Of a stretch of 64,000 bases of DNA, positions 10,106 through 61,543 are shown piece after piece. The notes beneath the pieces were generated by a model. That model had not been told where the DNA came from and searched no databases. It worked only from the letters and a program-made list of their open reading frames with translations. The first letter of the stretch is position 1. The number at the start of each line of letters is the position of its first letter. A program made the translations under genes and the position numbers. The stretch is from Amphiura filiformis (lineage: Eukaryota > Echinodermata > Ophiuroidea > Amphilepidida > Amphiuridae), in assembly GCF_039555335.1 (NCBI RefSeq), contig NC_092642.1, forward strand, positions 17,079,208 to 17,143,207, in the 5' to 3' direction.

Positions 10106-12030
10106 ATATTGATAAACACATGCTATCAGCAGTAAGTGGGATATTGATTGACTACTTGCTATCAGCAGTAGATGGGTATTGATAAACTACTAGTACTTGC
10201 TATCAGGTGATGGGATATTGATAAACAACTTGCTATCAGCAGAAGATGGGGCATTGATAAACTACTTGCTATCAGCAGTTAGATGGAGGTTGATAAAGTA
10301 CTTACCATCAGCAGTAGCTTTTTTTTTATTGATAAACTACTTGCTATCAGCAGTAGATGAGATATTGGTAAACTACTTGCTTTCAGCAGTAGATGGGATA
10401 TTGATAAACTACTTGCTTTCAGCAGTAGATGGGATATTGATAAACTACTTGCTTTCAGCAGTAGATGTGAGGTATTGATAAACTACTTGCTATCAGCAGT
10501 AGATGGGATATTGATCAACTACTTGCTATCAGCAGTAGATGGGATATTGATAAACTACTTGCTATCAGCAGTAGATGGGATATTGATAAACTACTTGCTA
10601 TCAGCAGTAGATGGGATATTGATAAACTACTTGCTTTCAGCAGTAGATGGGATATTGATAAACTACTTGCTATCAGCAGTAGATGGGATATTGATAAACT
10701 ACTTGCTATCAGCAGTAGATGGGATATTGATAAACTACTTGCTATCAGCAGTAGATGGGATATTGATAAACTACTTGCTTTCAGCAGTAGATGGGATATT
10801 GATAAACTACTTGCTTTCAGCAGTAGATGGGATATTGATAAACTACTTGCTATCAGCAGTAGATGGGATATTGATAAACTACTTGCTATCAGCAGTAGAT
10901 GGGATATTGATAAACTACTTGCTATCAGCAGTAGATGGGATATTGATAAACTACTTGCTATCAGCAGTAGATGGGATATTGATAAACTACTGACTTGCTA
11001 GCTATCAGCAGTAGATGGGATATTGATAAACTACTTGCTATCAGCAGTAGATGGGATATTGATAAACTACTAGCTATCAGCAGTAGATGGGATATTGATA
11101 AACTACTTGCTAGCTATCAGCAGTAGATGGGATATTGATAAACTACTTGCTATCAGCAGTAGATGGGATATTGATAAACTACTTGCTAGCTATCAGCAGT
11201 AGATGGGATATTGATAAACTACTTGCTATCAGCAGTAGATGGGATATTGATAAACTACTTGCTATCAGCAGTAGATGGGATATTGATGAACTACTTGCTA
11301 GCTATCAGCAGTAGATGGGATATTGATAAACTACTTGCTATTAGCAGAAGATGGGATATTGATAAACTACTTGCTATCAGCAGTAGGTGGGATATTGATG
11401 AACTACTTGCTATCAGCAGTAGGTGGGATATTGATAAACTACTTGCTATCAGCAGTAGATGGGATATTGATAAACTACTTGCTATCAGCAGTATATGGGA
11501 TATTGATAAACTACTTGCTATCAGCAGTAGATGGGATATTGATAAACTACTTGCTAGCTATCAGCAGTAGATGGGATATTGATAAACTACTTGCTTTCAG
11601 CAGAAGATGGGATATTGATAAACTACTTGCTATCAGCAGTAGATGGGATATTGATAAACTACTTGCTATCAGCAGTAGATGGGATATTGATAAACTACTT
11701 GCTAGCTATCAGCAGTAGATGGGATATTGATAAACTACATGCTATCAGCAGTAGATGGGATATTGATAAACTACTTGCTATCAGCAGTAGATGGGATATT
11801 GATAAACTATTTGCTATCAGCAGTTTTCATGGGATATTGATAAACTACTTGCTATCAGCAGTAGATGGGATATTGATAAACTACTTGCTATCAGCAGATG
11901 GCATATTGATCAACTTGCTATCAGCAGTAGATTGGGGTATTGATTAACTAATTGTCATCACTAGTAGATGTGGGTTGATAAAGTACTTGTTATCAGCAGT
12001 AGATGTGTATTAATAAATAAGTCAGTGTAC
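10106..12030. repeat. 36-bp minisatellite array, roughly 50 units
   Basis: The unit is TTGATAAACTACTTGCTATC followed by AGCAGTAGATGGGATA (36 bp). Central units are almost identical; both ends are degenerate, typical of unequal exchange. Variants include CTTTCAGC for CTATCAGC and a 40-bp form with an extra TAGC. Because 36 is a multiple of three, long artificial reading frames (INYLLSAVDGIL repeats) run through it; they shift frame at each 40-bp unit and are not evidence of a protein. Each standard unit contains two WGATAR motifs (TGATAA, and TGATAG on the other strand). Confidence 0.95.
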
Positions 12031-17803: not shown

Positions 17804-20800
17804 TCAAGCTAGAGTGGCTTGTTCCATTGAGAGTTGCTGTGTGGGTGTTCTCTGCATACTTCCGCTACCGGTACGCATCCCTATTGCACTGGCTGCTCTA
17901 CTAGAACCGGCACTCCGTCTCTGCGCTTCTCTCATAGCCCAGATTTCATGTCCACGTTGGTCTAACATTGTGAATTCATAACCAGCATTTGATAAATTAA
18001 TAGCGGGACATAAGGCGTTCTCTTTAGGAATGTATTCTGTCTTATACATGGTGCGATCATCAAATGGTTCCGAGCTAAGATTAGCTGTACGATCAGGGCC
18101 CAGGCTACGTACTGGGGGCGCTTGTTTCGGGATATAGTGAGACCTATAGTTCGTCGTTCCCTCAAATGGTAAGTCTGGCCTCTGGTAAGGCTTCTGTGTT
18201 GGGTCACCGCGTCTCTCGGGCACACTGCTCCACTGCCTGAAATCTTGACTGTAATGTGTGCGGTCGTCAAAAGGCGCTTCTGTCATGCGACCAGTCGTTT
18301 TTGGCCTCTTGTGGCTTGGTGGTCTGATCTGATGAGGTGGGTATGCGATTTTTGATGTTGTTGCTAAGTCCATCTCACCAGCTGGTTTTGACCATGATTC
18401 TGGTACGTGGGGTTGGGGGCGCTGCCCTTCCCATGGTCTGTAATCAGTTTTAAAAGTAGTGTTGTCATCAAACGGCGTATCAGAATGGAGTGCATCAACT
18501 GGAGGCTTGAAGCTGTCCGATCGTGGTGCGTTTGTACCGGTAAAGTCACGTCTGAACGTTGTCATGCTGTCAAATGGATGCTTGTTTCTTTTGTAGGCCT
18601 CCTTTGGCGGCACATAGCGAGCCTGTGCCTGATGGGGAATATAGTCCAAGCGATGACTTGTTTTATCATCTAGTGGGTCTTGGGATTGATATGCAGAGTT
18701 TGATGGTTTCATGTTTGGTCGCATTTCAGCTCTCTTAGGGGCATAGTCCCGAGTGAAAGTAGAAACTCCATCAAAGGCTGCATTTGGAGGTATGTAGGCA
18801 TTCTGCGGTTTCGGGGCGTCTCTTGGTGCAAGGTCCCATTTGCGGTAGTCATCTGGAGAAAGGAAAAAAACAATGTAGATTTTATATTTATCAGGTGTCT
18901 TAATTTGCATTTTAAATTAACAGAAAGGAAAATACATTCAAACTTTGAACAGAGGAGCAAGTCTATGGATACATTTGAGAGAAAAACAAAAAGAGTCATT
19001 TAATTGGGCGAAGACGACTAGGTGAAGTTCATCTGTTTTTAGAAGGCTTCAAAATGGAAATTTCTAAGCCTTTAGAGTATAACTCTTTAACTCATGAATA
19101 ATTCTTCACAGTGGCATAGATTTCTTTGTAGAGATAATCTAGTCCCTTGGTACAAATATGCATGAAACAAGCTAAAAAGCCATTGCCATTTTAAAGTTAA
19201 AATGGTCAAATATGATGTAAATTTGAACAAATTCACATGAAGTGCATGACAATTTGCAATTTTTAAGGTTTAGCATTCCTAGGGGGCAAAAACCTGGTCT
19301 TTAAAAAATCCTTGTTAAATAAGACAGAGGATTCACAAAGGGCTGATCTATCTTTTTTGTCAAGATTTTACCTATTAATATTTTTTGTCAAGATTTTACC
19401 TATTAATATTTTTTGTCAAGATTTTACCTATTAATATTTTTTGTCAAGATTTTACCTATTAATATTTTCCAAGAAGGAAGTCTCCTCCCTCACTCTAGTT
19501 ATCACTGGAAGACACCATTGCCTCCAGAGTTTGAAAATAAATCAAATTTTGAAACATGCTTTTGCAATCTTGCTATGTGTGTCTGGACTCCAGATCTCAT
19601 CAGGCAACTGACCACTGGACTAGTTGTGTGATAGATGGCATAAGAGAGTATGAGTGGAATGCACCAAAAGAGTCATCTGTGAGAGTCATGCATCAAAGAA
19701 GTCATCTGGGACCGAGATTAAAAGCAACCATCACTAAACAAGACAGGAGGACTCAGTTTGAACTTTTATCTCATGTATGGGACTAAGCCATCAAGACGAT
19801 ACATAGTTATCTATCATGTAACCCATCCAGCAGGTCAGATGCCTGATGAATTCTGGAGGTTCCAGATGCAATGGGCTATTCCAGTTGAAGTAAACACTAC
19901 CCCTGTGGAAGATTTTGGAAATACCTTCCACAGGTGGAGCAAGTTTTTAAAATGTAATTGGTCAGGGTAAATCATTTTGAAACCAATACTCCCCTGTATT
20001 ATAGCTTTACCTAGATATCTTTCACAACTGGAGTGAGTATTTCAAATGGAAGTTACCCAAAATGTGTCTGTTCTATTCAAAACTTATACTCCCTCTGTGG
20101 AAGACTTTAGCTAAATCTTCCAAAGGGGTAGTGTGGATTTTAAATTGAATAGCCAAATATAGGGAAGCTTCCAAACTTGATTTCCAAATTCTATTTTCAA
20201 CTACTGGATGTCTAAGAACATTCTCTCATTTGTAAGCCATTAGTCTTACCTGTGTATGTTGGGTGTCCCCTGAATTCACCAGTTGGTACATGGTTTGTGT
20301 GTGTACCCCTAAAACTCTTGGGCATATCAGCTTTTCTTGCAGGATAGTCTTTGGTGTATGAGGTCAAGAGGTCAAAATCACCATCAGGTTTTCTGTAACC
20401 ATCAGGAACATGGGGAGCAGGGCGTTGTGCATCGTGAGGGATGTAATCAAGTCTGTGGGGAAACAAGAAAGAAAATTATTAGTTATTCATTGTTTTTGGT
20501 AGGCTATGTGATGTGGTATATTTAGAAAGTTGCACCAATGAAGTTTGGTTTTGCATTCAGTTCTCCTCAAGAATTACTTTTCAATTTTGGACAAGTCAAG
20601 TCACCTCCTTTGTCTATTTGCAAGTTAAAAGTAACAATCCTTTTCTTTTGTTATGTTTGTAAAATCAGCTTCCTCTTGCATCACAAAATTGATTGCCAAT
20701 GTGTTTGTTTGTTCTGATTCACGATGCGTAACTCTATTTACTGCTTAACTACCGGTACTTGATATTCTATGAGCAAAAAGGATTAGTTTATCTTTCTGGG

Positions 20801-35040: not shown

Positions 35041-38000
35041 TCACCTGCATCCGCATTCTTGCACGATCATATCCTCATGGTTTTTCATAACGATGGAACC
35101 TTTCTCAAAATACAAAATACTCAAAGGTGATAACTTCGTTGGTACACAACACGGCGCTGGTGCCCTGCGTTTATCGCGGATCCGTAAAAGTCCGACTAAA
35201 ATAGCATGATTACTTGGGTTATCATCAGAGTCTAAATATCCAGTGCATCTGCCAGCACAGCGATACGCATTAAAGTTCTTTGGGTATATAATCCACTGTT
35301 CCCAACCGACGCGTTGAAAGTCAACTTCCATTGGCACACGACGACAAGGTCCTGATTCCATCTCTTTCTGCATTCCTTGCAAACGTTCTCTTTCAAGTTT
35401 GTCCCGTCTAGCCTGTTCTTGACGCTCCCGTTCTAATTTCCGAGCTTCTTTTTCTTTCTTTTTCTGCCGTTTAGCTGCTAGTCGATCTACACCTCGTCGC
35501 TGTCGAACTTTCACTGACGCACCAGCGTCCAAATGAATACTTAAAGGCACTGAAGCTTTTGAAAAACAAACAAGCACAACTTCACTAAAAATATCCGTTG
35601 GAGTTTCAATATCCACGATCAAATTAGGGTCACTAAACTCGTGTCTTGTGCGAAGTTCAAAATTATTATCCCATTGTGCATCTTCAGTTAACCATGCCCG
35701 GAGAACTTCGGTGACGTCAAAGACTTCTCGACCATCGTAGAAATCATGATGACGCTCAAACAGTTGCCGTTGGGAAAGCATTTTCCTTACAAGACAATCA
35801 AACACAGTAGCATCAGTATGGCAAGGCCTTCGTGCGAAATGATGAACGCCGATTTCAACAGTGTCGTGACGCCGAGATGGTCGGATCTGAACTCGAAGCT
35901 CTGCTAGATGAAGATCTTCTGGGTGAGTCATGAATGATGACAACTTGAATTTGGCCAGGAACTGCGCTGAGGTGCCATCAGAGGAGACATTCTGAACTGT
36001 ATAAGAAAAGACAAAAATGATGGAAGGATTTGATTACTTTTATGGTAGCAATTAACAATAGTCAATAAACATGAGAAAATACTTACAACATAGAAGTTAG
36101 AACCTTTTTGTCCCGTACAAGTTCAAGAACCAGAAAGCTCATAAGGACCAATAAGGGTTCTAAAGATCTGGAGGTCAGTTGACGAACCCTTTAGAACCTT
36201 TTTTTTCAAAGATTGTACACACAAAAAACATGACATTTTTCTTCAACGATATTTCGGGAAAGTACAAACAAATTAATTATTCGGGAAACACCGTGGACCT
36301 TTTATTCCACTTTATTGAACATTCCGCACTCCAAAAACTGCGACTTGTTTAGCTACCACGGGGGACCCTCTTCAAAGCCGTGCTTCGCAAGGGCCCCTTT
36401 TTGGCTAAATAAACTAGTTTATATTTAGTTCTTCAAAAGTATACACCAAAATTATAGAAAACTAAATTTGAACTAGGTAGGGGATCTCTTGAACGATTGG
36501 TAAAATGTTTCCACTTACTTAGTTAAATAAACGCGATTACAAATTCTTTTTTGAGAAAGAGCAAACCCGATTAATGTTTTCAAGTCGAGGTCGACTTATT
36601 GAAAAGGAATAATTTTGACTTTGTATGCCATCAGACGACATAATTGGCTTGTCTGAAATATGACAAAATTGAACCACTGTTAAGTTTCAACATTTTGTAC
36701 ACAATCTATATATAAATGCAGGCCTAAAATGAATGTCAACAAAAATGTAAAAAATATTGATAAAAATCATATAATATGCAATTAATATCAGTGGTTTCAC
36801 TCAAAGAAAATAATGGTATAACCGCTGAAGACAATTTCACCGAATGCTCCGCAATACGAAGCATTTATAGTAATTATTTATTTTTATGCATGCACGGATT
36901 CAAGAACTGCTTGCATGCAGAAAGTGGACTTCCCGTAAAATTGACTTTGTTGATGTGCTTCGCTAATTTGGTCCTTCTTGGATAGGTTGATTATAAAATT
37001 TTGAAGTTAAAATTTGAGTCCAAAATTGTAAGAAATAGAAAGCTGACACAGTTTCCTGTAAAATGAAGGGTCAATCATGTCTGTTGAGCAAAATTAGTGA
37101 AGTTCTAGATGAAAGTATATTGCCAGACTTGACCTAAAGGTAGTGACCAGTGCACGTGTGCAGGTTAATATACGCAGTTTTCAATGTTAGACTATATCAT
37201 GTAGTACTTTTTACAGAGGGGCAGTTTTTCCAGTCGTTTTATAAAGAGATCATTTATATTTTATAAAAAGGAGCAAGTGGTTTTGGTAAGATGTGTATAA
37301 GAAATACAAAACAACATTTGCTTTTCTTGAACATGGATGGGAAGCGGTTCAATGGACGTGGCCACAGATTTTGAACACAAGGGTGTCACCAATATCCGTG
37401 TTATGATCACACATATCTTGGACATCATACCTTCAAAAGTTCACATTTGAAAATAAAAACTCGCATTTTGTCCTTTGCCCGTAGATTTATAACGTCTCTA
37501 CAAGATAAATATGGCTGAATGCCGAATGTTAAACTCGTTTTTAGAACTTTTTACACGTTCGTTCCAAGAATGTACATTTTGAAAACAGTGTTTTGAAAAA
37601 AGTAAACTATGATCAGTGTGATAATGTTTGTGGTAATCATGGTAATAATTATCATAATGATCCACTTTTAATTTGGAGCTAAAATACTGTGAAGTTGAAT
37701 GAATTGTTGAATGATGAACGAACGAGTGAAATATCTAAAAATGGAAAGGAGCGTTTGATAAGGCGCTGAAGTATGTAATTGCGCCAAAAAATAATTCCGT
37801 TTCTTTTTCGTTATGATTCTTTATTTGAACCTAGTTTCATACACGTTCCGTACAACAAAATTAATAAACATTATTTAAAACATAGACTTACCGGCAAGCT
37901 TAGCACCAAAACTTCTCACAGTATCGGACTCTTCTATCGCCAAACTCTCTGTCTTTGACGGATGCAACAAATTGTATCCCGTAGTCAAAGATTGATATAA

Positions 38001-38243
38001 ATTAATGATATAAGTGGGAGACGGGTTATGGATAAAATGTCCTGTAGCGTTCCAATCAGTCTCATCGGTTACATCTATACTGCCGTTGAAATTCAGAAGA
38101 TGAGGTAGCTGGTTCGTGTCCCTTTTGGAGCGAGCAATTTCATCAAGTTCTTCCAAGAATGACTCGTCGTGCAGAAATTCCGCATCGAATGCGACGCAAT
38201 GGGTGACGAAGACTGAAGCCAAAACCAAATATAAAATTTCCAT
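35041..38243 (-). CDS. nodal: Nodal, TGF-beta family ligand precursor, complete, 435 aa
   Basis: Two coding exons: 37892-38243 (donor G|GTAAGT, phase 1) and 35041-35996 (acceptor TTATACAG). Start ATG 38243 opens MEILYLVLASVFVTHCVA, a signal peptide; an upstream in-frame extension would bury it. The prodomain (to about 281) has NGS, NAT and NVS sequons and the AELRVQIRPSRR / LRAWL blocks of TGF-beta propeptides. A furin-type RQRR is at 282-285. The mature end has seven cysteines in Nodal order: C335RRVP..[24 protein letters not shown], ..APAPCCVPTKLSPLSILY, ..MIVQECGCR. Nodal signals through activin-type receptors and Smad2/3 and sets axes (left-right; oral-aboral in sea urchins). Unusual: 49 residues of Lys/Arg/Glu-rich linker between RQRR and the first knot cysteine. 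Intron 35997-37891 has a small GGGTTCTAAAG hairpin near 36160-36200. Confidence 0.95.
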
Positions 38244-38382
38244 GTCGATGATGATAATATTCCTATATGATAACTTAGAGAGCAATGGTAATGATGTTGA
38301 TCGGTGTATGGATAAAATCCAAGTGAGGTTTTTGACTTTAACCAAAACAAACTGAACTGATATAACTTAATTAGCTCTAGTA

Positions 38383-41012: not shown

Positions 41013-44000
41013 ATGGAAAAAATCTTCGGAAATTTAACAAATGTGGCATCTATTACTGAAAACAAAGATCAAGACCGCAAATCTATGGGTAAGTTTAAAT
41101 CAGTCGTTTAACAAATGACACGCACGATTGTGATCATAAATACCATGAGTATATATTGTACAGTTATACCTTAGTCAGTATAGATACAGCATTGGTCTGT
41201 TTTATTACGAAACAGCTTAAATTTATCATTTAGTTATCAGGGCTCTCAAACTACCAAAGCAAAACAATATAAATGTTACTAAAATGTTAATAAAATACAA
41301 GGAATATCTGTTTCAAAATGTTTGCACATATATTTTCACGCATGATGTGCACGTGGTGCACCTATGCACAGGCGGGATTTCCAAACATATCGATATTTTT
41401 GCACGGAAGTCCGGAGCCTGGAAAGTCAACATTACGCCATCAATTGCTGCTATGTCACACAATACAGAGCGTGTTATATTGACCGCAGACAATAATACAC
41501 AACTTTAAAAAAGAACATCCTTAGTTTTAAGGGATCTAAAATGATCGTTTATTGCGTTTCGACAGTATTTTTTGTGGGACATGAGAGCACCTCAGACCTA
41601 TCGAATTGCATTCTGAATACGAAGCATGTCTTTCTGATATCAAATAATTTTCATTTTTGAAAATCACAATATAATACAAATTTTATGACAAATTATAAAA
41701 ATTTGATATTTTTCACATTTTGATATATAACAGTCCTCGAAGTAAATTATATAAATCTAATGACATATTCTTAAAGTGTATGTAGCAGGAGGAAAAGCCG
41801 ACGGTCAATAGAAAATTTTGACCTTTCATATTGAAGATATGGATTTTTTTCCCCAAAAGACCTAATTTTTGTTGGTGTTTTGGGAACAAAATCCATATCT
41901 TCAATACGAAAGGTCAAAATTTTCAATTGATCGTCGGCTTTTCATCCCACCTACATACACTTAAAGTATAAATCATCAGATTTATAAAGTTTACTTCAAG
42001 TACTGTTAAATATCAAAAATATCAATTTTTAATGATTTGCCATAAAATGTGTATTAAATTGCGAATTTTAAAAAGCAAAATTATTTGATATCAGAATGAC
42101 ATTCTTCGTATTCAGAATGCAATTCGATATGTCTGATGTGCTCTAATGTCCCACAATAAATACTGTGCAAACGTTCATCCCCCAGCCCTTAATGCGTGTG
42201 GCATTCGAGTCGGAAGGGAGCCCAAGGCTTGAGGGATAAGTGGATAAGGGATGTCATTTCTGCATCATGCGCGTAATTTTTCTCGAGGTGGCAAAATGTC
42301 CAAAACTATTGTTTTGATATTAATTTGGCTTTGACTTAAGAACCGCAATCTTGACCGGGTTTTGGGGGAAATTATGAGGTTATTATTTGAAACTCAAAAA
42401 ACCTATACAAACATTATTTTATACCATGTTCAATGTCGCCAAAGTACACAACCTAGTCACCAATGGAAATAGAATAATATGAATGAAGTGATTGCCACAG
42501 CAGCAAAATTGGGCGTGTTATTTAAACTCTAAATTTGACGTTTAGCACATTTTGTGATATTGTCAATTTGCAACCGATTTTTAATCTCCCTTGCAGATTC
42601 ACAGGAAAGTCAAGAGTACGCTCTTTGGGGTCCGACGTCATTGTCACTCAGTTTCACAAACCAAGAATCACCAGGAAACTGTACAGAGAAGGACGAAAAC
42701 AAGAAGGGCGAAGGCATTTCCAAAATGAAGTCGAATGAAGCGAAATTGTACAAGACGGAAAGCGATTTTGAAATTCTAAGTAACAATGGACAATCAGAGG
42801 AAATATGTCATACGGTTGAGGTGAAAGACACACACTCTAACTCGAGCTATGATCTCTTGTTTGATTTAGAAGATGACGGTTTGGATCTTTATCTTCCAGA
42901 TCAGCATGATCAGGGTGTGATAAGAAAATCAGAGACAGCTAGCCCGCAAATGGATGGGCTTTCCATTCTAGCCGATTTAACGACATCATTGTTTGATGAC
43001 CATGACGATGGAATAAAATCCAATGACAATGTAAATCGCCGCTCTGTTTCAATTTCAAATAACGACATCGAAAACATCAAAAGCACCAGTCGTAATGGAT
43101 CTGTGGAACCAACCAAGTCTCCAAATGTTTTTGCAAACCAAACTAAATCGTTGTCCCAGAAAAGTGATTCAGATTCCCTGCCAGATATTAAAAGTTGTCG
43201 AAGTAAGGAACTTGAAGATTTAGAGAATGAAAAGAGCAGTAATACATCCGAGGAACTATCCATACTTGAAAGCGAAAGTTTTGTGGATTTATTCTACAGG
43301 ACCAGTGACAATCCGGGAGCAAATGAGCCACAATTTAACCGTTCAAAATCGAACTTACTGAAAATGTCAGAGAGCTCGAAAGAAAACAATGCAGTCGAGA
43401 TCTCTCTACTTGCAAGCGAAGCTTCTTTTTTCTCCAACACCAGTATCGAGTCTGACATTGTCATGTTCTCGACACCACAAGAAACCTCGTCACCTATACG
43501 ATTGAGAAGCAGTGAAATTATAACGACTAGCCCGTCTAACACAATGGAGGATAGAACTCCTTACACCAGAAACGACTTAGTAGGATGCAGGCTGGATTTT
43601 TCAGATGATGATTCGCGTGATGCTTCTTCCGATGTTGTACAAACTTTTGAAAGAGATCATCTTAAGACACTAGGGGACGCTAACGATAAAATGAACACAG
43701 CCCAAGATACAAAAACATCGTCGTTGCTCAGTAGTGACGATTTTGATGATACAGATTGTGACGAAGACAAGCAATCCAATACACCCGAGCTTAGTTTCGA
43801 AGATTATCTTCTCACCATCGACGAACTTCAACGCTTCAAGAGGAGCTGCGCAACAGCCAGCAGCTGCAGCTCTGTTTGCGATTTAGATACTGGATGTTCT
43901 GCAGAAATTGCCGACATAATCGCCAATGCCTCCTTGTCATTAGATTCGTCTTTTTCTGATGATGACGACGAAGATGACGACGAAGATGATGACGACAAAT

Positions 44001-45625
44001 GCTCTTCGGCGAAGGCCGAAAATGACAATGCAGACTCAAAAAGTGTTGACGAAGGTAAAGCTGGTGCCGTCCAATCTTCCAATCAGAAAGCTACCAAAAC
44101 TAAGGCAATACCTAAATATTCTAATGGAGAATTGCATCCGCGATCATTTGGATTTAACTCCATATCAAATGGACCTAGATCGTCCTCTGGAGGGTTTTGG
44201 GCTCGCCCATCGATACCAAGTCACCACGTCAGCAGTGTGCCCAACCATCATAGCAATATACCCGATCAAGGTCTTGAATTTTGTCGGAAAAGGGGATATA
44301 CTCATAATAGGCATTCAAGAGCAAATAGGAAACTGTTTGATCCTTATGTTGACAGAAAAATAGCGCCTACAACACCGAGAAAGCGTCCGTGGCGTCCAAA
44401 TGTACCTCGCGAACAGGGAGAATCGCATGAAGAGTGGCCGGCTCTTCCAGACGGGCCGTCGCCTGAGATACCCAATGAGGAAGCCAAGGAGCAAGCCCAG
44501 TCACAAACGTATGCAGAAGTGTTGACGTCACCTCCGAAGGTGAAACCCAAAATCGATCCCGCATTAGTGTCAACCTCTCATAAACCGATCCATGCTGCAA
44601 ATATTGAGGATTCCATGGAAGCGTATTGTTCCATAAGACCATTAATGGTAGGAAGCTTTGTTTGCGCTCCGATTAGTCCTTGTCGAAGAGAATTCTTGAT
44701 TTCAAATGGTGAAAATCCGACCAGGTTAAATAATGACGGGACAGTGTCTTTAGGAACTCAATTTGAAAGTAGTGAGGCCTTTAACGCAATCAGTTGTGCT
44801 GCACATGAAATAAATGGATTCCCAAATAACATCGTCAACTCTCGATACCATCAGGATCAGCAAAGGCCAGTTGAATTCCAAGATCCTGCAATCGTTGAAA
44901 TAGGCACAGGCTTTCAAATTCCCTCCATGGTCGATTCCTCTTGCGGGACGATAGAATCACAACTAAGAAATGGTCCAGATGTCGACTTAATGAGTTTGTT
45001 TAGAAGCAGCAAAATGCCGATAATGTATTGCCGACCTAATGTGCAACAAGAAGATCCGGCCATTTTAGGCGTCCAAGGTTGTGGTCAGCAACCCTTGACC
45101 ACTTTTTCACCTATGAGCCATGCCTTGCAAATACAACATGTCCAAGTAATGACAAACGGTGTCTCCCCATGTTATGCCAAGCCAGTAAGTGAAACTCCAT
45201 CTTCTCCACCGAAGTCATCCAAGAAGAACGCCATGTTTGACGATCCTGCAATTATTTACGCCGATCGTCGGAAAAGTCCCACGAATCCGCCGCAACATGA
45301 ATCCCTTCCATCGACAGAGCTTATCCAGACCGGTTTCTGGTCGGTACACGAAAACACACGTTGTTTGAACAACACGTTCGTCGAGAGCAACCCGTTGTTC
45401 AATCAATCAGCTGCTTTGCAGACTCAGACTACCTTTTCAGCGGGATATGGCAATCACGGTATTAGTCAAGAAACTGTTTTTCCCGGTCACGATGGCTATC
45501 AGCAGTTCCCTTTTCAACCTAAAGCGGCAACTTTTAACTTGATTGCAAGCATCGGTGGTACTACATTCTACAATCCACTTATACAAAATCAGGGGCATGA
45601 CGGGATAAGTATATGTGGTGTGTAA
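41013..45625 (+). CDS. Large disordered Ser/Asp-rich protein, family not recognised, complete, 1034 aa
   Basis: Exon 1 41013-41088 (25 codons, ATG|G GTAAG donor) joins exon 2 42597-45625 (acceptor CTCCCTTGCAG) in matching phase; total 3105 bp. No signal peptide, membrane segment or known domain was seen. Residues 30-480 are rich in Ser, Asp, Asn and Glu with clusters of short acidic/hydrophobic runs (DLLFDLEDDGLDLYLP, SFEDYLLTIDELQRF). About 480-495 is an almost pure Asp/Glu tract. 550-640 is basic and aromatic (SFGFNS, GGFWARP, RANRKLFDPYVDRK, PRKRPWRP) followed by EEWPALPDG and TYAEVLTSPP. The C-terminal third repeats a DPA[IL] motif four times (near 680, 788, 845, 908). It looks like a scaffold or RNA/chromatin-associated regulator, but that is a guess. 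ATTAAA at 45768-45773 is a possible polyadenylation signal. Intron 1 contains the TTAA foldback at 41527. Confidence 0.85.
41527..42192. mobile_element. TTAA-flanked foldback element, copy 3 (full length, intronic)
   Basis: Starts TTAAGGGATCTAAAATGATC and ends CATCCCCCAGCCCTTAA; 666 bp including both TTAA. It is in the opposite orientation to the copy at 13646. Arms pair almost end to end (e.g. ATCGAATTGCATTCTGAATA vs TATTCAGAATGCAATTCGAT). It occupies nearly half of the single intron of the 1034-aa gene. Confidence 0.8.
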
Positions 45626-54240: not shown

Positions 54241-57200
54241 ATGTCAGAGGTTCCGTTGCCTTGGGATCAATCAGATACGGACATTAATGACTACATCTCT
54301 ACATATCTCAGACCAGATGAAGATGTAGCCAGGAATTTGGATGTTGCCTTGGACAACTTGATGATTACACACCTGCGGGATGCAGTCACGTATACTATTT
54401 CACGAATTAGAAGAGTAAGTTTGTGGGGTGAGTTGGGGATGTGGGGTGAATGTGTGGGGGTGCCTTTGCTTTTGCAATACTTCCGAGGACTCCAACATAA
54501 CAACACACCGACACACCGAGGACCGAGGACCTCGTACTTAACGAGGACCTAAACGGCATAAAAATGAGGTCTTACATACTGCAGTTACTGTCCGTTTTCC
54601 TATACACAATACACAGTGCTCTCACCATTGACGCGTGACCTGTACAAATGATGTATGTTGGGAGAATGGACACTTGCCTAGTTAACATCACTGTGTGAAA
54701 AATAACCAGCCAATATTTTATTTATTCTCCAAAACTTCTAGCAAATATATTTCTCTAACATGACCTAAAATTACAGCTAGGTTAGATGTTCAGAAATGGT
54801 CGCACTTTTGTAAAATATGAGTGAGGGCAAGGCATAGCTAGCCAACTCCCCGTGTTAATTGAATGGAGATTTGACCGAAAATATTGGTATCGGACCGCTC
54901 ACTTCTGAAGGATGCCACAAAAAACGGTAAAAGCTACATTTAAATTATTCTAAATAGGTTCTAGAAAATAAAGTTTTGTAACATGTCCTAAATTTTTAGC
55001 TAATTTAGATGTTTGGAGAGGGTCGCACTTTTGTGTTTTAGGAAGGATATGTAAACGACAGATAACACCAAAAATATGAAGAAATTATTTCCAAACCGTG
55101 TTAAGTCAACAATCATTATGTTGCTCATTTTGAAGAATGCTGGTTAACAAAAAGCAGGTCTTTGTCTCATTTCGTGAACAAAAGTACACATACCATTGTT
55201 TCCTTTCGTTTCCTTTATAATCGGTTACCCAACTGAAGCTATAATACGCAAACTTTATTGCGATATCGCACATGAAAACAGTCACATGTGCACAGCCAGA
55301 GAAGATCCGATTTAATCAGTTGAGCTGTTTCAATGAGTGTTATCTTGGTTTAATAGCTTTTAATGGGGTTAAGTCCTGCAAAGGTCGAGATGAATTCTAC
55401 TGTAGACATGACTGCATCATGATACCCTACTACCCCCTCTATAACTGACGTCTTTGCAGCGCTAACCTTTGTAATACTTGTTCGGTATTACCGAATTTTT
55501 GAGCACTTGACATGACAACACCGACACACCGAGGACATTTGGACTTGTATCATGTATGATGATATAGCACAAATTATTTGTGCTGTGGATTCATCAGTTC
55601 ATTTTGTGAGGACATCCAGACACAGGAAAGTCTACTTTGATATGCTTTCATTAAGTGTGGATAACAATGATATTAAAATATTAATTATAAGCTATTATAC
55701 TCGTAGGCCTACTTGTGAGGAAACAATTGAATATATGAATACAAAAGCCACCCAAGTCCATACTGTGGCCAAATTGATTTAAGCATGGGAATTTGTTGCT
55801 ATGCATAGGCCTGTCATATGTATGAAAAAACAACTCAAATTCATCCACTGTGTCTATTGAGCATGTGAGAAATAGCATGTATGAAAGAACCACCCAAGTC
55901 CATGATTTGAGTCTTGTAACACATTGATTGAAATCCAGTATGTATAAAAGTCCACTTGTAACACATTCATTGCTTCAGAGTGACTTTTGAAAAAAAGTGG
56001 GTTTAATAAAGGAAAGTGTGTGGTTTATATTACATGGCAGAATGCTTGTCAACATTATACATACCTGTGTGCTTTATTTTGTATTATCTTACTAGTGGTA
56101 ATCTCATTCAAACATTGTTGTCTTTGTATATGATTCAAAAAACCACCCAAGTCCAAAATTTAAAATGAACCCCACGAAGTCCCTGAAATGCTAATCGTCA
56201 TACTTAATACAGTTTAACTCACTCATTTGCACGTAAAACTTACCATATTGACCAGGTAAATATAACTGAAGGAATTAAAATGATACACATGTTTTTCTCT
56301 CAAAATCACTTCCCATGGACTTGGGTGGGTTTTGTATTCATGTATTCAATTTGAGGAGTCCATATAGGCCTATGCATTTTCATTTCTCATAGCCTGCTGC
56401 TCCATTCCATCTCCTGGTTGTGACAGTTTGGTATGTGTGCGTGTTGGGGGGGGCTCGTGTGTTCAGTATGGTGATTATCACTTACGTTCTACGGGGGCTA
56501 GGACTCTACCGGTCCAAAATGTTTCATTTTGGAACTTCAATATCTCACACCAAATAACAGAGAATGATACGTGGGAAAAGGTATTTTCTATGATATTTGT
56601 GTTCTCTCTTGCAGGGCGGTGGTTTAGCTCAACGTATCCATCTGAAAGAAGATGAACTTGACTTCGAGCTCTACGTATTCATCGGTGACCTTCGCGGTAT
56701 CGATGAGCATCGGCAGCGTATCGATAAGATATTGATAGAGACACGTGACGTCTTGGATAATCCTGACCTGATGCATCTTGTGATGGTCCGAGGGGAAGAA
56801 AAGGAGATGATCAAAGAAGGCAGGATCTCAATCAGAGTGACGGCTGATGATGAGTGGTTTGAAGGAAAGCTATACCCAACAGTGGACTTGCTTGGAGTCA
56901 AACCTAGCAATGGTATGTCGGAAAACATCTCAGCAGCCTACGTTAGTACAAGTAATGACACTATGATTAGGCTTATGTTGAAAAATAATACCCGCCATAC
57001 ACTTTGTAAGCACACTTTTTGGTATAAAAACAGTGTGACGATATTCTCGCGAGATCTCGTTTAAAGGTTGTGCGCGAAGACATTATCCATCATACACTTC
57101 GTAAAATTCACTTTTTATATCTATATTAATCTCGTGACAATAATAATTCATTCCATCTCTATTATTTACTTGCTGTAAACGAACAGCAGCAGTGCTACAC

Positions 57201-58744
57201 TTAAGATATTATATCAATGACGCGCTGTGGAAGCTCAGAAGGTAAATAATTTTGCATGGATGAAATGAGACATGACTGCCTATGCCAGGAATGCCTCATG
57301 AAATAAGACATCGATATTAAACAACCGAGAAGTTTGGGTTTGCAGGATGGTACCTCAGAAAATCTGAAAGTGGACCCATATTTATACAAATTTTCCAACA
57401 AAATAGATACATAGGGCCTATATACATTGTTTTATAATACTGATACCCAGGTCTTTCAATTTAACACAATTTCGCAATTTGGACTCCAGTTAGATGAAAT
57501 TGTGGTATTTTTTCACCAAAATATTCGAAAAAAAAAGTACTAATTTTCATATACCAAGATTGACCGAAAAGGTACTATTGTTATACCAGATCAGAGGCCT
57601 GAACATGAGCCACATAAATTTGAGGCGCATCCCCATATTGTCATTTGTACTAAGTGCCCCTAAGATTATAGAAAATAAACTGAACTGAACTGAATTGACC
57701 ATAGATCATCACATTTAGATAATCTATGATTGAACTAGCATTGGATTATCTGTTTTTTCTTCTTGCAGCAACTCTGGAGATCATGTATCGTCAATACACA
57801 AGAGATGCAGACAAGGCGTGTTTCCTTCCCGCACTCAGAGTTCTTTACATCAATCTGATCCAATCATTACCACAGAATGTCAGAGACTTAATCCTGCTCT
57901 TAAAATACTGGGAAAAGTCTAAATTGCAACTCAGGGGAAGAAAACTACCAGATAGATTCTGGGAAGTGATATGTATTCGTCGGTGGGAAATGGCGGGCTC
58001 TCCGAAGACGTTCAATTGCGCACGTGGTCTCTTCGATGTACTTGAATTAGTAAGCGATTGGCGCGCAATTATGATCACGTGGGAGACAAGTGAACATAGA
58101 TTTTATTCGAAGAAAATTGCTGATGAGAAAAGGCGGGAAATTGACAATCGTAATCGGTAAGGATACCTTATGAAACTTATGATTCAGATTTTGAATACCA
58201 GTTCAGTATAAATATATCAGTATAATTATATCTTCATGTTAAATGGACATTTTCTTTATGAAATAGACACAGCTACATCTGTGGTGCGCCTGTATTAAAG
58301 GCGGAAAATCCTACCAACCAACCTATACCAATCTGGAATTCTGGGGCTATATTCAATCATGCATTTTAATCAACGCTGCAAGTGCATAAATTCTAAGTAT
58401 TTCATTTAGGGCCTAACTCACTATTTTGATCCTTTGAAAGTTGATTAGTAAATTAATACTTTAACTTGAGGTATTCAACAAACTTTTTGACTAAATGTTT
58501 AGGAGAAGTCATATATACCTTACTTTAATTCTACCCTCAATTAATATACGAGTATTGTGGCATATTCTTTGCTCATTTGGGGGAGGGCGGATAAAAGTGT
58601 TTTTACCGTTATATAATTTTTAACCGCAAATTTAGAACATAGTTATACAGGTCAAATATAGCAACCGGTAAGCATGTCAATTAACATGATTAAGTTGACG
58701 CGTTGAAGAAATGGTATTATTTTTTATCGTTTTATATTTTTATC

Positions 58745-58775
<31 letters not shown>

Positions 58776-58985
58776 GTGTTGTTATTATTATTATTGTTAT
58801 TTTCTTCTTTTTTTCCCAGGAAAGGTGAGCAAGTTGCAGTTATTTACGATCCCGTGGATCCTCATTTAGACCACACACGTGGAATACGTTCTTTGGTTTG
58901 GGATGAAATAGCCAGGACAGCGATGGACTCGTGTGAAGAAAAACTGCTTAAAGTACTGAAGAAAACCAAAACTTGGACAATATGA
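54241..58985 (+). CDS. OAS-like (2'-5' oligoadenylate synthetase family) nucleotidyltransferase, complete, 341 aa, altered active site
   Basis: Coding exons 54241-54414, 56615-56912, 57769-58156, 58820-58985, with consensus donors/acceptors and matching phases; total 1026 bp, the length of a single OAS unit. Residues 1-58 form the N-terminal helix region (DINDYISTYLRPDEDV). Exon 2 begins GGGLAQRI, in place of the GGSxxKGT loop, then ELDFELYVFI, in place of DADLVVF. KLYPTVDLLGV replaces FDVLPAFDALG. Exon 3 carries LLKYWEK, FNCARGLFDVLELVSDW and ITWETSEHRF, and exon 4 VIYDPVDP, all OAS hallmarks. OAS enzymes sense double-stranded RNA in the cytosol and make 2-5A that activates RNase L. Here, of the three catalytic aspartates, the second reads Glu and the third Lys, and the KGT loop is lost, so synthesis is doubtful; a non-catalytic OASL-like role is possible. 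AATAAA at 59355-59360 may end the transcript. Confidence 0.88.
54484..54550. repeat. CGAGGAC-motif cluster in OAS-like intron 1
   Basis: CGAGGAC occurs four times in about 65 bp, with ACACCGACACACCGAGGACC. The string CCGACACACCGAGGAC recurs at about 55518-55535 in the same intron, and CGAGGAC is the core of the arrays at 48881 and 50465. Confidence 0.6.
58746..58798. repeat. (TTA)n microsatellite
   Basis: About 17 imperfect ATT/TTA units, 20 bp before the acceptor of the last OAS-like coding exon. Together with the following T-rich run it extends the polypyrimidine tract. Confidence 0.85.
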
Positions 58986-60784
58986 ACACAAAATAATGGT
59001 CTCTAACTTTTATATGAAACATTATTTAGTGGATCGCTACATAATATTGACTTGAGATGACCTCAGCTACCTGCTCATATAATTAATCTGGTCTACTCGG
59101 GCAGCTGATCCTCGTGTGATACTCGGGGAGTGGATCCTGGCTGCGATGGTTATCATATTATATGTAGGCCGACTAGGGTCTGCGCCTGTATAGAGCTGCA
59201 TCCTATTATCAATTTCTAAGCGCTCTTTAGCAAAGTCAAAGTTCACTGAATTTTGAACCGTATGACAAAACAGGCGAAAATGGTAACTTTTTGCACAAGA
59301 TTTGCAATTTAAAAGAGAATTGGCCATTGCTCATTGAAATGAAGCTAGTATATAAATAAAAATAAATGTCGGTGATTTAACGTGCGCTACACCTAAGTAC
59401 CAGCACACTTCAACACTTATTCCGCTGCCATTAGGGTATATCAGAATCAATTTCCGCTTCCACAAGTCCGCAACTGATGCACAGGTACTCTCAGCGACGT
59501 AGATTGTGATTACCCCCAGTAGCTCCCCAATTTACACCTGGGTGGAGTGAAGCAATTGGGAATTCAGGTTGTTCAGTTCCCCGAATGGAGTCTGATTAGG
59601 AGCAAATTTTGACGTTTTTAACGTTTTTCCCCCGAATCCCCCGAATGACCAACAAAAGTGGGGGGGGACATGGCCCCCCTTTGCGCACGCCACTGTTAGG
59701 GACTCTCATTACGACTATCTGCTGCTGCTGTGAATACGTCCCTTTGCGTAATATCCTATGGAGGCGGTTGCAGAGAAACGAACCAGACCCAGAATGACGC
59801 AACCACATTTCTTGAAAGTAACTGTAAGCAGTGGTAAGGCCACTCGCGACCCCATTTAGAAAAAAAGGACAAAAAATGACATAGGGGGAAAATGGTATGG
59901 CCGCTATATGCAGGTGTAAAAAGAGTGGAAAAAAGAGTGAAAGAGTGAAATGGAGGACACCCTTTTTGAGTGGAAAAATGTTACTCTAAAAAAGTAGTCT
60001 GTATACTCTCGAAAGAGTAAATATTGCCTAAAGATAATGATAAAAAAATATATTGTTTCTTTCATTTTCGAGTGTTTTCCACTCAAAAACGGGTTGTCCT
60101 TGGTTCAACTCCTTGAAAGTGTGGAAATTCACTCTTTTACATTTAGAGAGCTCAAATGACAAAATTTGGTGAATGTGGATAAAAACGCATGTAACTGCAT
60201 CAATATTCGCCCAAATTTAAAATTTGAGCCCTACATTAGCGGTTAAATATTGGAAATATGCAATTAAAGACTCATTCAGTGATTCCAGCTCAAGTTTACA
60301 AAAATTAAAATTGTTTATAAATTGCTTAAAAGTGAAGGATAAGTCATTCAAATTGTCATTTGGTATTTTTGAATAGACAAATTTGGCAAAAAACGAAGAA
60401 ACAGCAGTATTGACGAAGTTGAAGCCCCATTCAAATACATGTAGCTAATTTAGATATACATGTATACTGTCAGTATCTAAATTACAGATTCGTGTAAAAT
60501 GTCTTATTTTGTCTTAAATACACGGCTTTCGGCTGAACCACTAGCAGGCTATGCTATGACAATGACAAAGGTACCAAAATCTGAATTTTGATGATTTTTA
60601 CGATCACTGAATGGGCCTTTAACATTCCCCCTATTTTGGATAATATGTTCAGGAGGGTTTTAGACTGGAAAGCAAACACATTCGTGTTCACATTTTGTCT
60701 ATGCACCCATTATTTTACTTAAATTGCCTCGTCTACATGTCAAAAGAAATAAACTTCCGTCAGGTTGTTTCAAAACCCATAATT
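58986..60784. other. Intergenic 3' of the OAS-like gene; no gene seen
   Basis: 59590-59700 is one end of a dispersed element (..GGGGGGACATGGCCCCCC..GCGCACGCCACTG). 59920-60130 is an inverted repeat on GAGTGGAAAA / TTTTCCACTC and AGAGTGAAA / TTTCACTCTT. Confidence 0.45.
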
Positions 60785-61188
60785 CAGGGGCGTAGCCAGC
60801 TTTCTTGGTGGGGGGGGGGGCAAAATAAAATTTTTGGGGCAAGGACGTCGGAAAAAATTGCAGTTGCATCATAATACATAGAGACTGTGTCTTCGAGCTT
60901 CCCGAAAAAGGCCTTATTTGGATGATGTGCTAGCATAGGGCGAAAAAATGATATTTTACACTATTTTCGCCCATTATCCTGCTGAAAAGGGCTTTACTGT
61001 TACAATGTGCGCGCGTAGCGCGGAATAAAATTTGTATTTTACACTATTTTGGCCCTGCTCCTTGCCTTTTTCTTTTCCTTTGCCCTCCTGATTTTCTCTT
61101 TCATTTTTTGTCAGAGAGGCACTTTTTTCTTTCATTTTTTTTGTCAGGGGGCACTCTGCCCCCTGCCCACCCGCTGGCTACGCTACTG
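60785..61188. mobile_element. hAT-type non-autonomous element
   Basis: Termini CAGGGGCGTAGCCAGC and GCTGGCTACGCTACTG are inverted repeats (14 of 16). The 8-bp flanks are CCATAATT (60777-60784) and TCATAATT (61189-61196). The interior has GCGCGCGTAGCGCGG and ATTTTACACTATTTT blocks shared with 27945-27990. No transposase frame. Confidence 0.8.
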
Positions 61189-61251
61189 TCATAATTGGTG
61201 CCACAGAGCATTAGGTGTAAGATTATACCCCACACCTCCTTCATCCATACC

Positions 61252-61404
<153 letters not shown>

Positions 61405-61543
61405 CATTTCACTAAAATAAAGTTGGCTTCTCAAGTTTTTTCCACATGCTCAAGGGGGAATTAACTATATGTTTTTTTGCTACCACAGAATAGGTTTTGT
61501 GTTGTGGTGGGGGGGTGTCGAATGCGTGAACATTTCATATCAA

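Follow-up and report, generated by a model that had tools for sequence, protein, structure and literature searches.

The window analysed here, a stretch of 64,000 nucleotides of contig NC_092642.1, carries on its plus strand, between positions 54241 and 58985, an intact four-exon gene for a single-unit protein of the OAS family. The protein has an OAS1_C domain, and two of its three metal-binding aspartates are lost (one of them to glutamate), as is the phosphate loop. It is very probably unable to make 2′-5′-oligoadenylate (2-5A), and we infer that it is a maintained pseudo-enzyme which acts by binding, an interpretation of the sequence to which we give a probability of about two in three. 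The gene model comprises the following features.

54241..54414, plus strand: exon 1, amino acids 1–58, the N-terminal part as far as the P-loop, ending ISRIRR (open reading frame and donor AGA/GTAAGT)
56615..56912, plus strand: exon 2, amino acids 59–157, which holds the loop of the active site, DxE and K143 (acceptor TTGCAG/GGC, donor ATG/GTATGT)
57769..58156, plus strand: exon 3, amino acids 158–286, the bulk of the OAS1_C domain (GT/AG splice ends, frame, Pfam and alignment)
58820..58985, plus strand: exon 4, amino acids 287–341 and the stop codon, with the IYDPVDP motif and the C-terminus (GT/AG splice ends and frame)
59355..59366, plus strand: two putative polyadenylation signals, AATAAA (pattern match)

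Three introns, each with GT/AG ends, link the exons into a spliced frame of 1026 nucleotides which encodes 341 amino acids and a stop (58985) and contains no internal stop codon. An initial annotation had described OAS landmarks and in-frame closure at the size of one OAS unit, and the motifs that it quoted are present. The G+C content by codon position (0.52/0.35/0.44, compared with 0.355 in the introns) follows a coding-like pattern. Measured against the intron background, the codon-usage log-odds of the spliced coding sequence (0.079) exceed those of all 2000 intron samples (maximum −0.063); as evidence for the frame this score was given no weight, since one wrong frame scores higher (0.095). 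Exon 2 aligns with OAS1 residues 61–167 and exon 3 with residues 168–295. For horse OAS1, exon 1 is reported to encode residues 18 and 49, exon 2 residues 77–150, exon 3 residue 209 and exon 4 residue 264 (PMC2048516); the extent of exon 2 agrees with this, whereas exon 3 here corresponds to two horse exons (3 and 4). An in-frame stop codon lies immediately 5′ of the ATG, which is also preceded by a pyrimidine-rich stretch, CTAAT and AG. The 5′ end of the gene model is not fixed, as this AG could be the acceptor of an upstream exon. Within intron 1, positions 55725–56351 of the window hold 37-nucleotide inverted repeats, 95% complementary and 553 nucleotides apart with related direct copies between them, which resemble a small inverted-repeat transposable element.

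It is highly improbable, in our view, that the loop and the DxD site have been miscalled and that the true exon 2, or the true end of exon 1, lies elsewhere. A second donor-like GT (54428, GTGAGT) does occur shortly past the end of exon 1, and the AG just before the ATG might accept an upstream exon. The 54428 donor, however, would shift the frame of exon 2, whose other two frames hold 8 and 13 stops, and the sites used in the model are phase-compatible, with a family alignment that runs continuously across the exon joins. DxE and K143 are inside exon 2, at least 15 and at least 14 codons from its ends. No further OAS exon was found in the window by tblastn with the protein (matches beyond its own exons had expectation values (E) of at least 0.5), nor an OAS-like alternative exon in intron 1 by Pfam (three plus-strand frames, E up to 0.1), in searches which relied on the protein itself or on Pfam models and which a short canonical exon could escape.

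The protein matches Pfam OAS1_C (PF10421), described as the marker of the OAS superfamily (Culbertson and Levin, 2023; PMC10732462), with E 1.1e-16 and 61.4 bits against a cut-off of 19.9. Its best match in the PDB is human OAS2 (residues 15–321, covering both lobes, E 3e-24), and the 15 distinct sequences found there at E up to 1 comprise seven OAS proteins (E 3e-24 to 1.4e-8) and eight non-OAS sequences (E at least 0.05). A hidden Markov model (HMM) built from six vertebrate OAS domains, with this protein excluded, gives it 71.7 bits. Our comparison set consisted of six mammalian OAS domains, to which the protein is 20.5–25.6% identical (24.7% for human OAS1), compared with 37–79% among those domains themselves; 25 of the 58 alignable positions that are invariant across the set are kept. 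Lower-metazoan OAS proteins are reported to be 23–33% identical to human OAS1 (Hu et al., 2018; PMC6307210). Judged by these alignments, the protein is a member of the OAS family by descent, about as divergent from human OAS1 as other invertebrate members are. Mab21 (PF03281), the domain of cGAS-like receptors, was not among its Pfam matches at E up to 1, and the same scan returned no nucleotidyltransferase domain. Matches to the influenza PB2 cap-binding domain (Pfam E 0.015, below the cut-off; six PDB sequences, E 0.05–0.5) were set aside as chance. Relatives were also sought in IMG/VR (8 pattern matches with the protein and 98 with a three-sequence alignment) and, with that alignment, in GTDB genomes (43 pattern matches), and tblastn confirmed none of these. 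A structure model of exon 2 alone had a mean predicted local distance difference test (pLDDT) score of 43, too poor for a fold search.

Three features of exon 2, all placed by alignment, define the state of the active site.

56615..56638, plus strand: GGGLAQRI (amino acids 59–66), counterpart of OAS1 GGSSGKGT
56660..56668, plus strand: D74-F75-E76, counterpart of OAS1 D75-A76-D77
56867..56869, plus strand: K143, counterpart of OAS1 D148

All four MAFFT modes set D74, E76 and K143 against OAS1 D75, D77 and D148, reproducing the initial annotation's by-eye alignment of DFE with DAD and of lysine with the third aspartate, and the HMM built without this protein aligns across the key active-site positions. 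To call the catalytic aspartates substituted, as that annotation did, is right for the second, a conservative change to glutamate (E76), and for the third, now lysine (K143), but overstated for the first, which is kept as D74. It had also seen GGGLAQRI in place of the KGT-bearing loop, and the alignment bears this out: the segment has the same length as GGSSGKGT and keeps its first two glycines, one residue is inserted ahead of DxE, and in the phosphate loop G, Q, R and I stand where OAS1 has S63, K66, G67 and T68. The three inactive human domains of the comparison still have S63 and T68, so that the loss of the loop goes further in this protein. E141 was considered as a spare acid that might provide the third metal ligand; OAS1 has a glutamate there too (E146), hence it is no substitute. 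Activity is reported to be abolished when the third aspartate is replaced by alanine, as in OAS1 D148A and OAS2 D481A (PMC13372824; D481A also PMC7264852), and by extension a lysine at this position would be at least as drastic as alanine.

The same picture emerges from 23 metal- and substrate-contact positions of pig OAS1, taken from PMC13129866 with residues 130 and 306–308 omitted, where a residue named twice was counted once and a gap as a miss. The protein is identical to pig OAS1 at 5/23 contacts and at 50/221 other aligned positions. The corresponding figures are 22/23 and 179/231 for human OAS1, 19/23 and 120/231 for the active human domain OAS2-II, 14/23 and 98/223 for OAS2-I, 10/23 and 109/220 for OAS3-I, and 10/23 and 98/224 for OASL. 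By these counts, the extra constraint on the active site that is evident in OAS2-II is missing from this protein, which keeps none of the eight contacts to the acceptor group and one of the four to the donor nucleoside.

Profile libraries provided controls. The Pfam model NTP_transf_2 (cut-off 21 bits) is passed by all three active domains (human OAS1, OAS2-II and pig OAS1), and neither the three dead domains (OAS2-I, OAS3-I and OASL, the last two as stretches without their first ~60 residues) nor this protein scored above the cut-off. Human OAS1 and OAS2-II still pass when trimmed to start at the loop (25.0 and 28.6 bits). At E up to 1, human OAS1 is matched by 12 bacterial cyclase models of PADLOC (by 6 of them at E up to 0.001), OAS2-II by 17, OAS2-I by 6, OASL by 2, OAS3-I by 1 and this protein by none; because OAS2-I still matches, we treat these counts as supporting evidence and not as a test of activity. 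The NCBIfam model CBASS_cyclase_a finds the N-lobe at E 0.013, below its cut-off. The loop and DxD are what the bacterial cyclase models recognize in the active human domains. Most probably, therefore, the ancestor possessed the canonical motif and this protein has lost it.

In view of these data, it is very unlikely that the protein is an active nucleotidyltransferase whose active site has been rebuilt, with an altered product or metal use. Such an enzyme could draw on the two carboxylates that D74 and E76 place on one strand, K203 and E223 match the pyrophosphate contacts K213 and E233 of OAS1 (Y230 is F), the N-lobe weakly resembles the CBASS cyclase model, and glutamate is said to be able to serve in polymerase triads (PMC4446440). 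The third carboxylate, however, is lysine in every alignment mode, the GS/KGT loop is lost together with the acceptor and most donor nucleoside contacts, and NTP_transf_2 is not matched; moreover, human OAS3 domain I, with the triad D/E/S, has been called inactive from its mutated sites (PMC6307210).

Loss of catalysis could mean that the gene itself is being lost. Six catalytic residues are altered, which by the genetic code takes at least seven nucleotide changes in about 24–27 sites. Because the frame of 341 codons and all intron GT/AG ends are intact despite these changes, a kept gene is favoured, short of proof. When the coding sequence was subjected to random substitution (2000 runs per rate, substitutions only, with insertions and deletions uncounted), no stop arose in 43.9% of runs at 0.02 changes per site, 12.4% at 0.05, 1.5% at 0.12 and 0.05% at 0.3; which density applies is uncertain, as the catalytic sites were picked post hoc and an active ancestor is assumed. 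A decaying paralogue, meaning a copy that arose recently from an active OAS gene and is non-functional although still free of stops, is unlikely. Many positions conserved in the family are altered, and a young pseudogene can stay open, as the runs at the lowest rate illustrate, but few frames survive at 0.12 per site even with indels left out of account, and the hallmarks of the C-terminal domain are retained in the OAS1_C match. Most likely, the sequence encodes a catalytically dead single-unit OAS protein kept by selection. The pseudo-enzyme proposed in the initial annotation is well supported by the D/E/K triad, the missing phosphate loop and the few contacts kept, and the relaxed-specificity nucleotidyltransferase and the decaying paralogue that it offered as alternatives are both disfavoured.

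What such a protein might bind was approached through the RNA groove, where the alignment places the following features; K204 of OAS1 is presumably among its C-lobe contacts with double-stranded RNA (dsRNA).

54376..54378, plus strand: R46, aligned with OAS1 K42 (a column in which three of the six reference sequences have a gap)
54400..54414, plus strand: S54–R58, aligned with OAS1 S56–K60
57849..57878, plus strand: C-lobe contact stretch with I185, Q189, Q193 and N194, aligned with OAS1 R195, K199, T203 and K204

The dsRNA contacts reported for OAS1 include Lys42, which contacts a base, Ser56 and Thr203 (PMC7367156), and those reported for OASL include K63, K66, R196 and K200; K63E and K66E, at the equivalents of OAS1 K57 and K60, fail to boost RIG-I signalling (PMC4446440). 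The OASL stretch used here begins at residue 61, with R45 outside the mapping. In our protein, the N-lobe contacts K42, S56, K57 and K60 are kept as R46, S54, R55 and R58, although the serine carries little meaning, the Ser56 contact being made by a backbone carbonyl (PMC7367156).

A true analogue of OASL, a dsRNA sensor that enhances signalling by RIG-I-like receptors, is nevertheless quite unlikely. R55 and R58 are basic and match OASL K63 and K66, R46 matches OAS1 K42, and RIG-I-like receptors are said to occur in hemichordates (PMC10210618), which counts if the source animal is a hemichordate. On the other hand, OASL R196 and K200, both part of a four-residue charge-swap mutant (PMC4446440), match I185 and Q189, no ubiquitin-like domain was found in the 5 kb downstream on the plus strand (Pfam, three frames, E up to 0.1), and none is described in the lower-metazoan OAS proteins examined by Hu et al. 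(PMC6307210). Binding of dsRNA as such is possible, short of a confident prediction. The initial annotation had suggested binding in the manner of OASL, a suggestion that the N-lobe sustains and that the C-lobe and the failure to find a ubiquitin-like domain downstream do not.

Several observations weigh against a maintained pseudo-enzyme that acts by binding. The C-lobe dsRNA contacts are lost at all four positions examined (R195, K199, T203 and K204 become I, Q, Q and N). The protein has a net charge of −5 and an isoelectric point of 5.9, with −13 in amino acids 1–157 and +8 in 158–341. The OAS1 stretch, by comparison, has +11, and the OASL (−1), OAS2-I and OAS3-I stretches are near neutral. 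Sponge OAS is likewise reported to have few basic interface residues (Hu et al., 2018; PMC6307210). Six mammalian domains leave the variation among invertebrate OAS proteins uncontrolled, and part of the mismatch may be plain divergence. Finally, the PADLOC counts form a gradient without a clean split between dead and active domains, the dead OAS2-I matching a cyclase model at E 9.3e-9.

If the protein is such a pseudo-enzyme, its most likely mode of action would be the docking of double-stranded or structured RNA, mainly via the retained arginine-rich edge of the N-lobe, or of a partner protein. It might then work as a decoy, inhibitor or adaptor next to active nucleotidyltransferases, much as the inactive OAS2 and OAS3 units or mouse Oas1b may do; a paper title credits Oas1b with suppressing the synthesis of 2-5A in intact cells. 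More speculatively, K143, opposite D74 and E76, could form salt bridges in place of the two metals and so keep the active-site cleft closed, an idea prompted by the likeness to activated OAS1 that has been reported for the OASL domain (PMC4446440).

The surroundings of the gene can be described briefly. Between 45.3 and 54.3 kb, and from the stop codon to 64 kb, Pfam found no known domain on the plus strand at E up to 0.1. On the minus strand, an open reading frame at 35041–36033 contains a TGF-beta ligand domain (Pfam TGF_beta, E 1.3e-32) and appears Nodal-like by eye; another at 37875–38366, with a signal-peptide-like start by eye and no Pfam match, may be its first exon. A 370-amino-acid frame at 17804–18916, also on the minus strand, matches SAXO1-2, a stabilizer of axonemal microtubules (Pfam E 7.6e-28). 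The plus-strand frame at 42539–45625 (1028 amino acids, acidic and serine-rich by eye, with no Pfam or NCBIfam match) looks like a genuine long coding exon. Positions 10361–11947 are a long run of repeats that can be translated in several frames (units such as DIDKLLAISSRW), probably a tandem satellite and not a gene. At 61101–61430 there is a microsatellite whose minus-strand translation is a repeated YLFI.

The main interest of this gene lies in the role of OAS in animals without RNase L and interferon, which is unexplained. Neither RNase L nor interferon is reported to have been found in four sponges and eight other lower Metazoa (Hu et al., 2018; PMC6307210), and in the sea anemone Nematostella an OAS1 homologue is described as enriched in immune cells (PMC13319465). 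A dead single-unit OAS protein in such an animal, if borne out, would show binding to be reason enough for keeping OAS. Such a protein would also lend itself to an unambiguous test, its function being explicable neither by 2-5A nor by ubiquitin-like domains. Dead OAS units are already known, so that the new point here is a separate loss of OAS catalysis in a probable invertebrate, most likely an independent one; in the open-licence literature, judged from titles and the openings of abstracts, we found no report of an invertebrate OAS without catalytic residues. We put forward only tentatively, at somewhat worse than even odds, the fuller proposal that this is an invertebrate lineage's own stand-alone OAS pseudo-enzyme, independent of OASL, OAS2-N, OAS3-N and Oas1b, in which the two-metal site has given way to a lysine that locks the fold, with no need of 2-5A, RNase L, interferon or ubiquitin-like tails. 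On that proposal, binding instead of catalysis would be a recurrent immune use of OAS proteins.

Among known systems, human OASL (p59OASL, PDB 4XQ7) is alike in family and in its incomplete triad (E/E/T), and its basic K63 and K66 are arginines here. It is reported to act through dsRNA binding (PMC4446440). Unlike our protein, it has C-terminal ubiquitin-like domains, for which Pfam found no counterpart downstream on the plus strand, and it retains GS and GT in the loop as well as R196 and K200; identity is 20.5%. OASL is the weaker precedent, since it acts via its ubiquitin-like domains and its R196 and K200 are replaced here. Human OAS3 domain I (PDB 4S3N) has the triad D/E/S, equal in its first two residues to D/E/K, and has been called non-enzymatic from its mutated sites (PMC6307210), but it is one of three units in a protein whose domain III is active, and it keeps GS, GT, R195 and K204; identity is 24.8%. 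Lower-metazoan OAS proteins show a similar divergence (28% identity to human OAS1 for the acorn worm Saccoglossus, 24.7% here) and are described as lacking ubiquitin-like domains (PMC6307210). The cyclases of the cyclic-oligonucleotide-based antiphage signalling system (CBASS), such as E. coli CdnC (PDB 6P80), share the weak N-lobe resemblance noted above, and a profile built from this protein together with two human domains finds CdnC at E 0.0062; unlike this protein, the active human domains match the PADLOC cyclase models, as, more weakly, do the dead ones. Mouse Oas1b is a single unit, and we set it beside our protein by description only. It is reported to be an OAS1 relative without 2-5A synthetase activity that is antiviral all the same and, unlike this protein, which stops at the end of the OAS unit, to have a C-terminal transmembrane domain (PMC13372824). 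By analogy, mouse Oas1b would be the nearest functional precedent for the protein described here.

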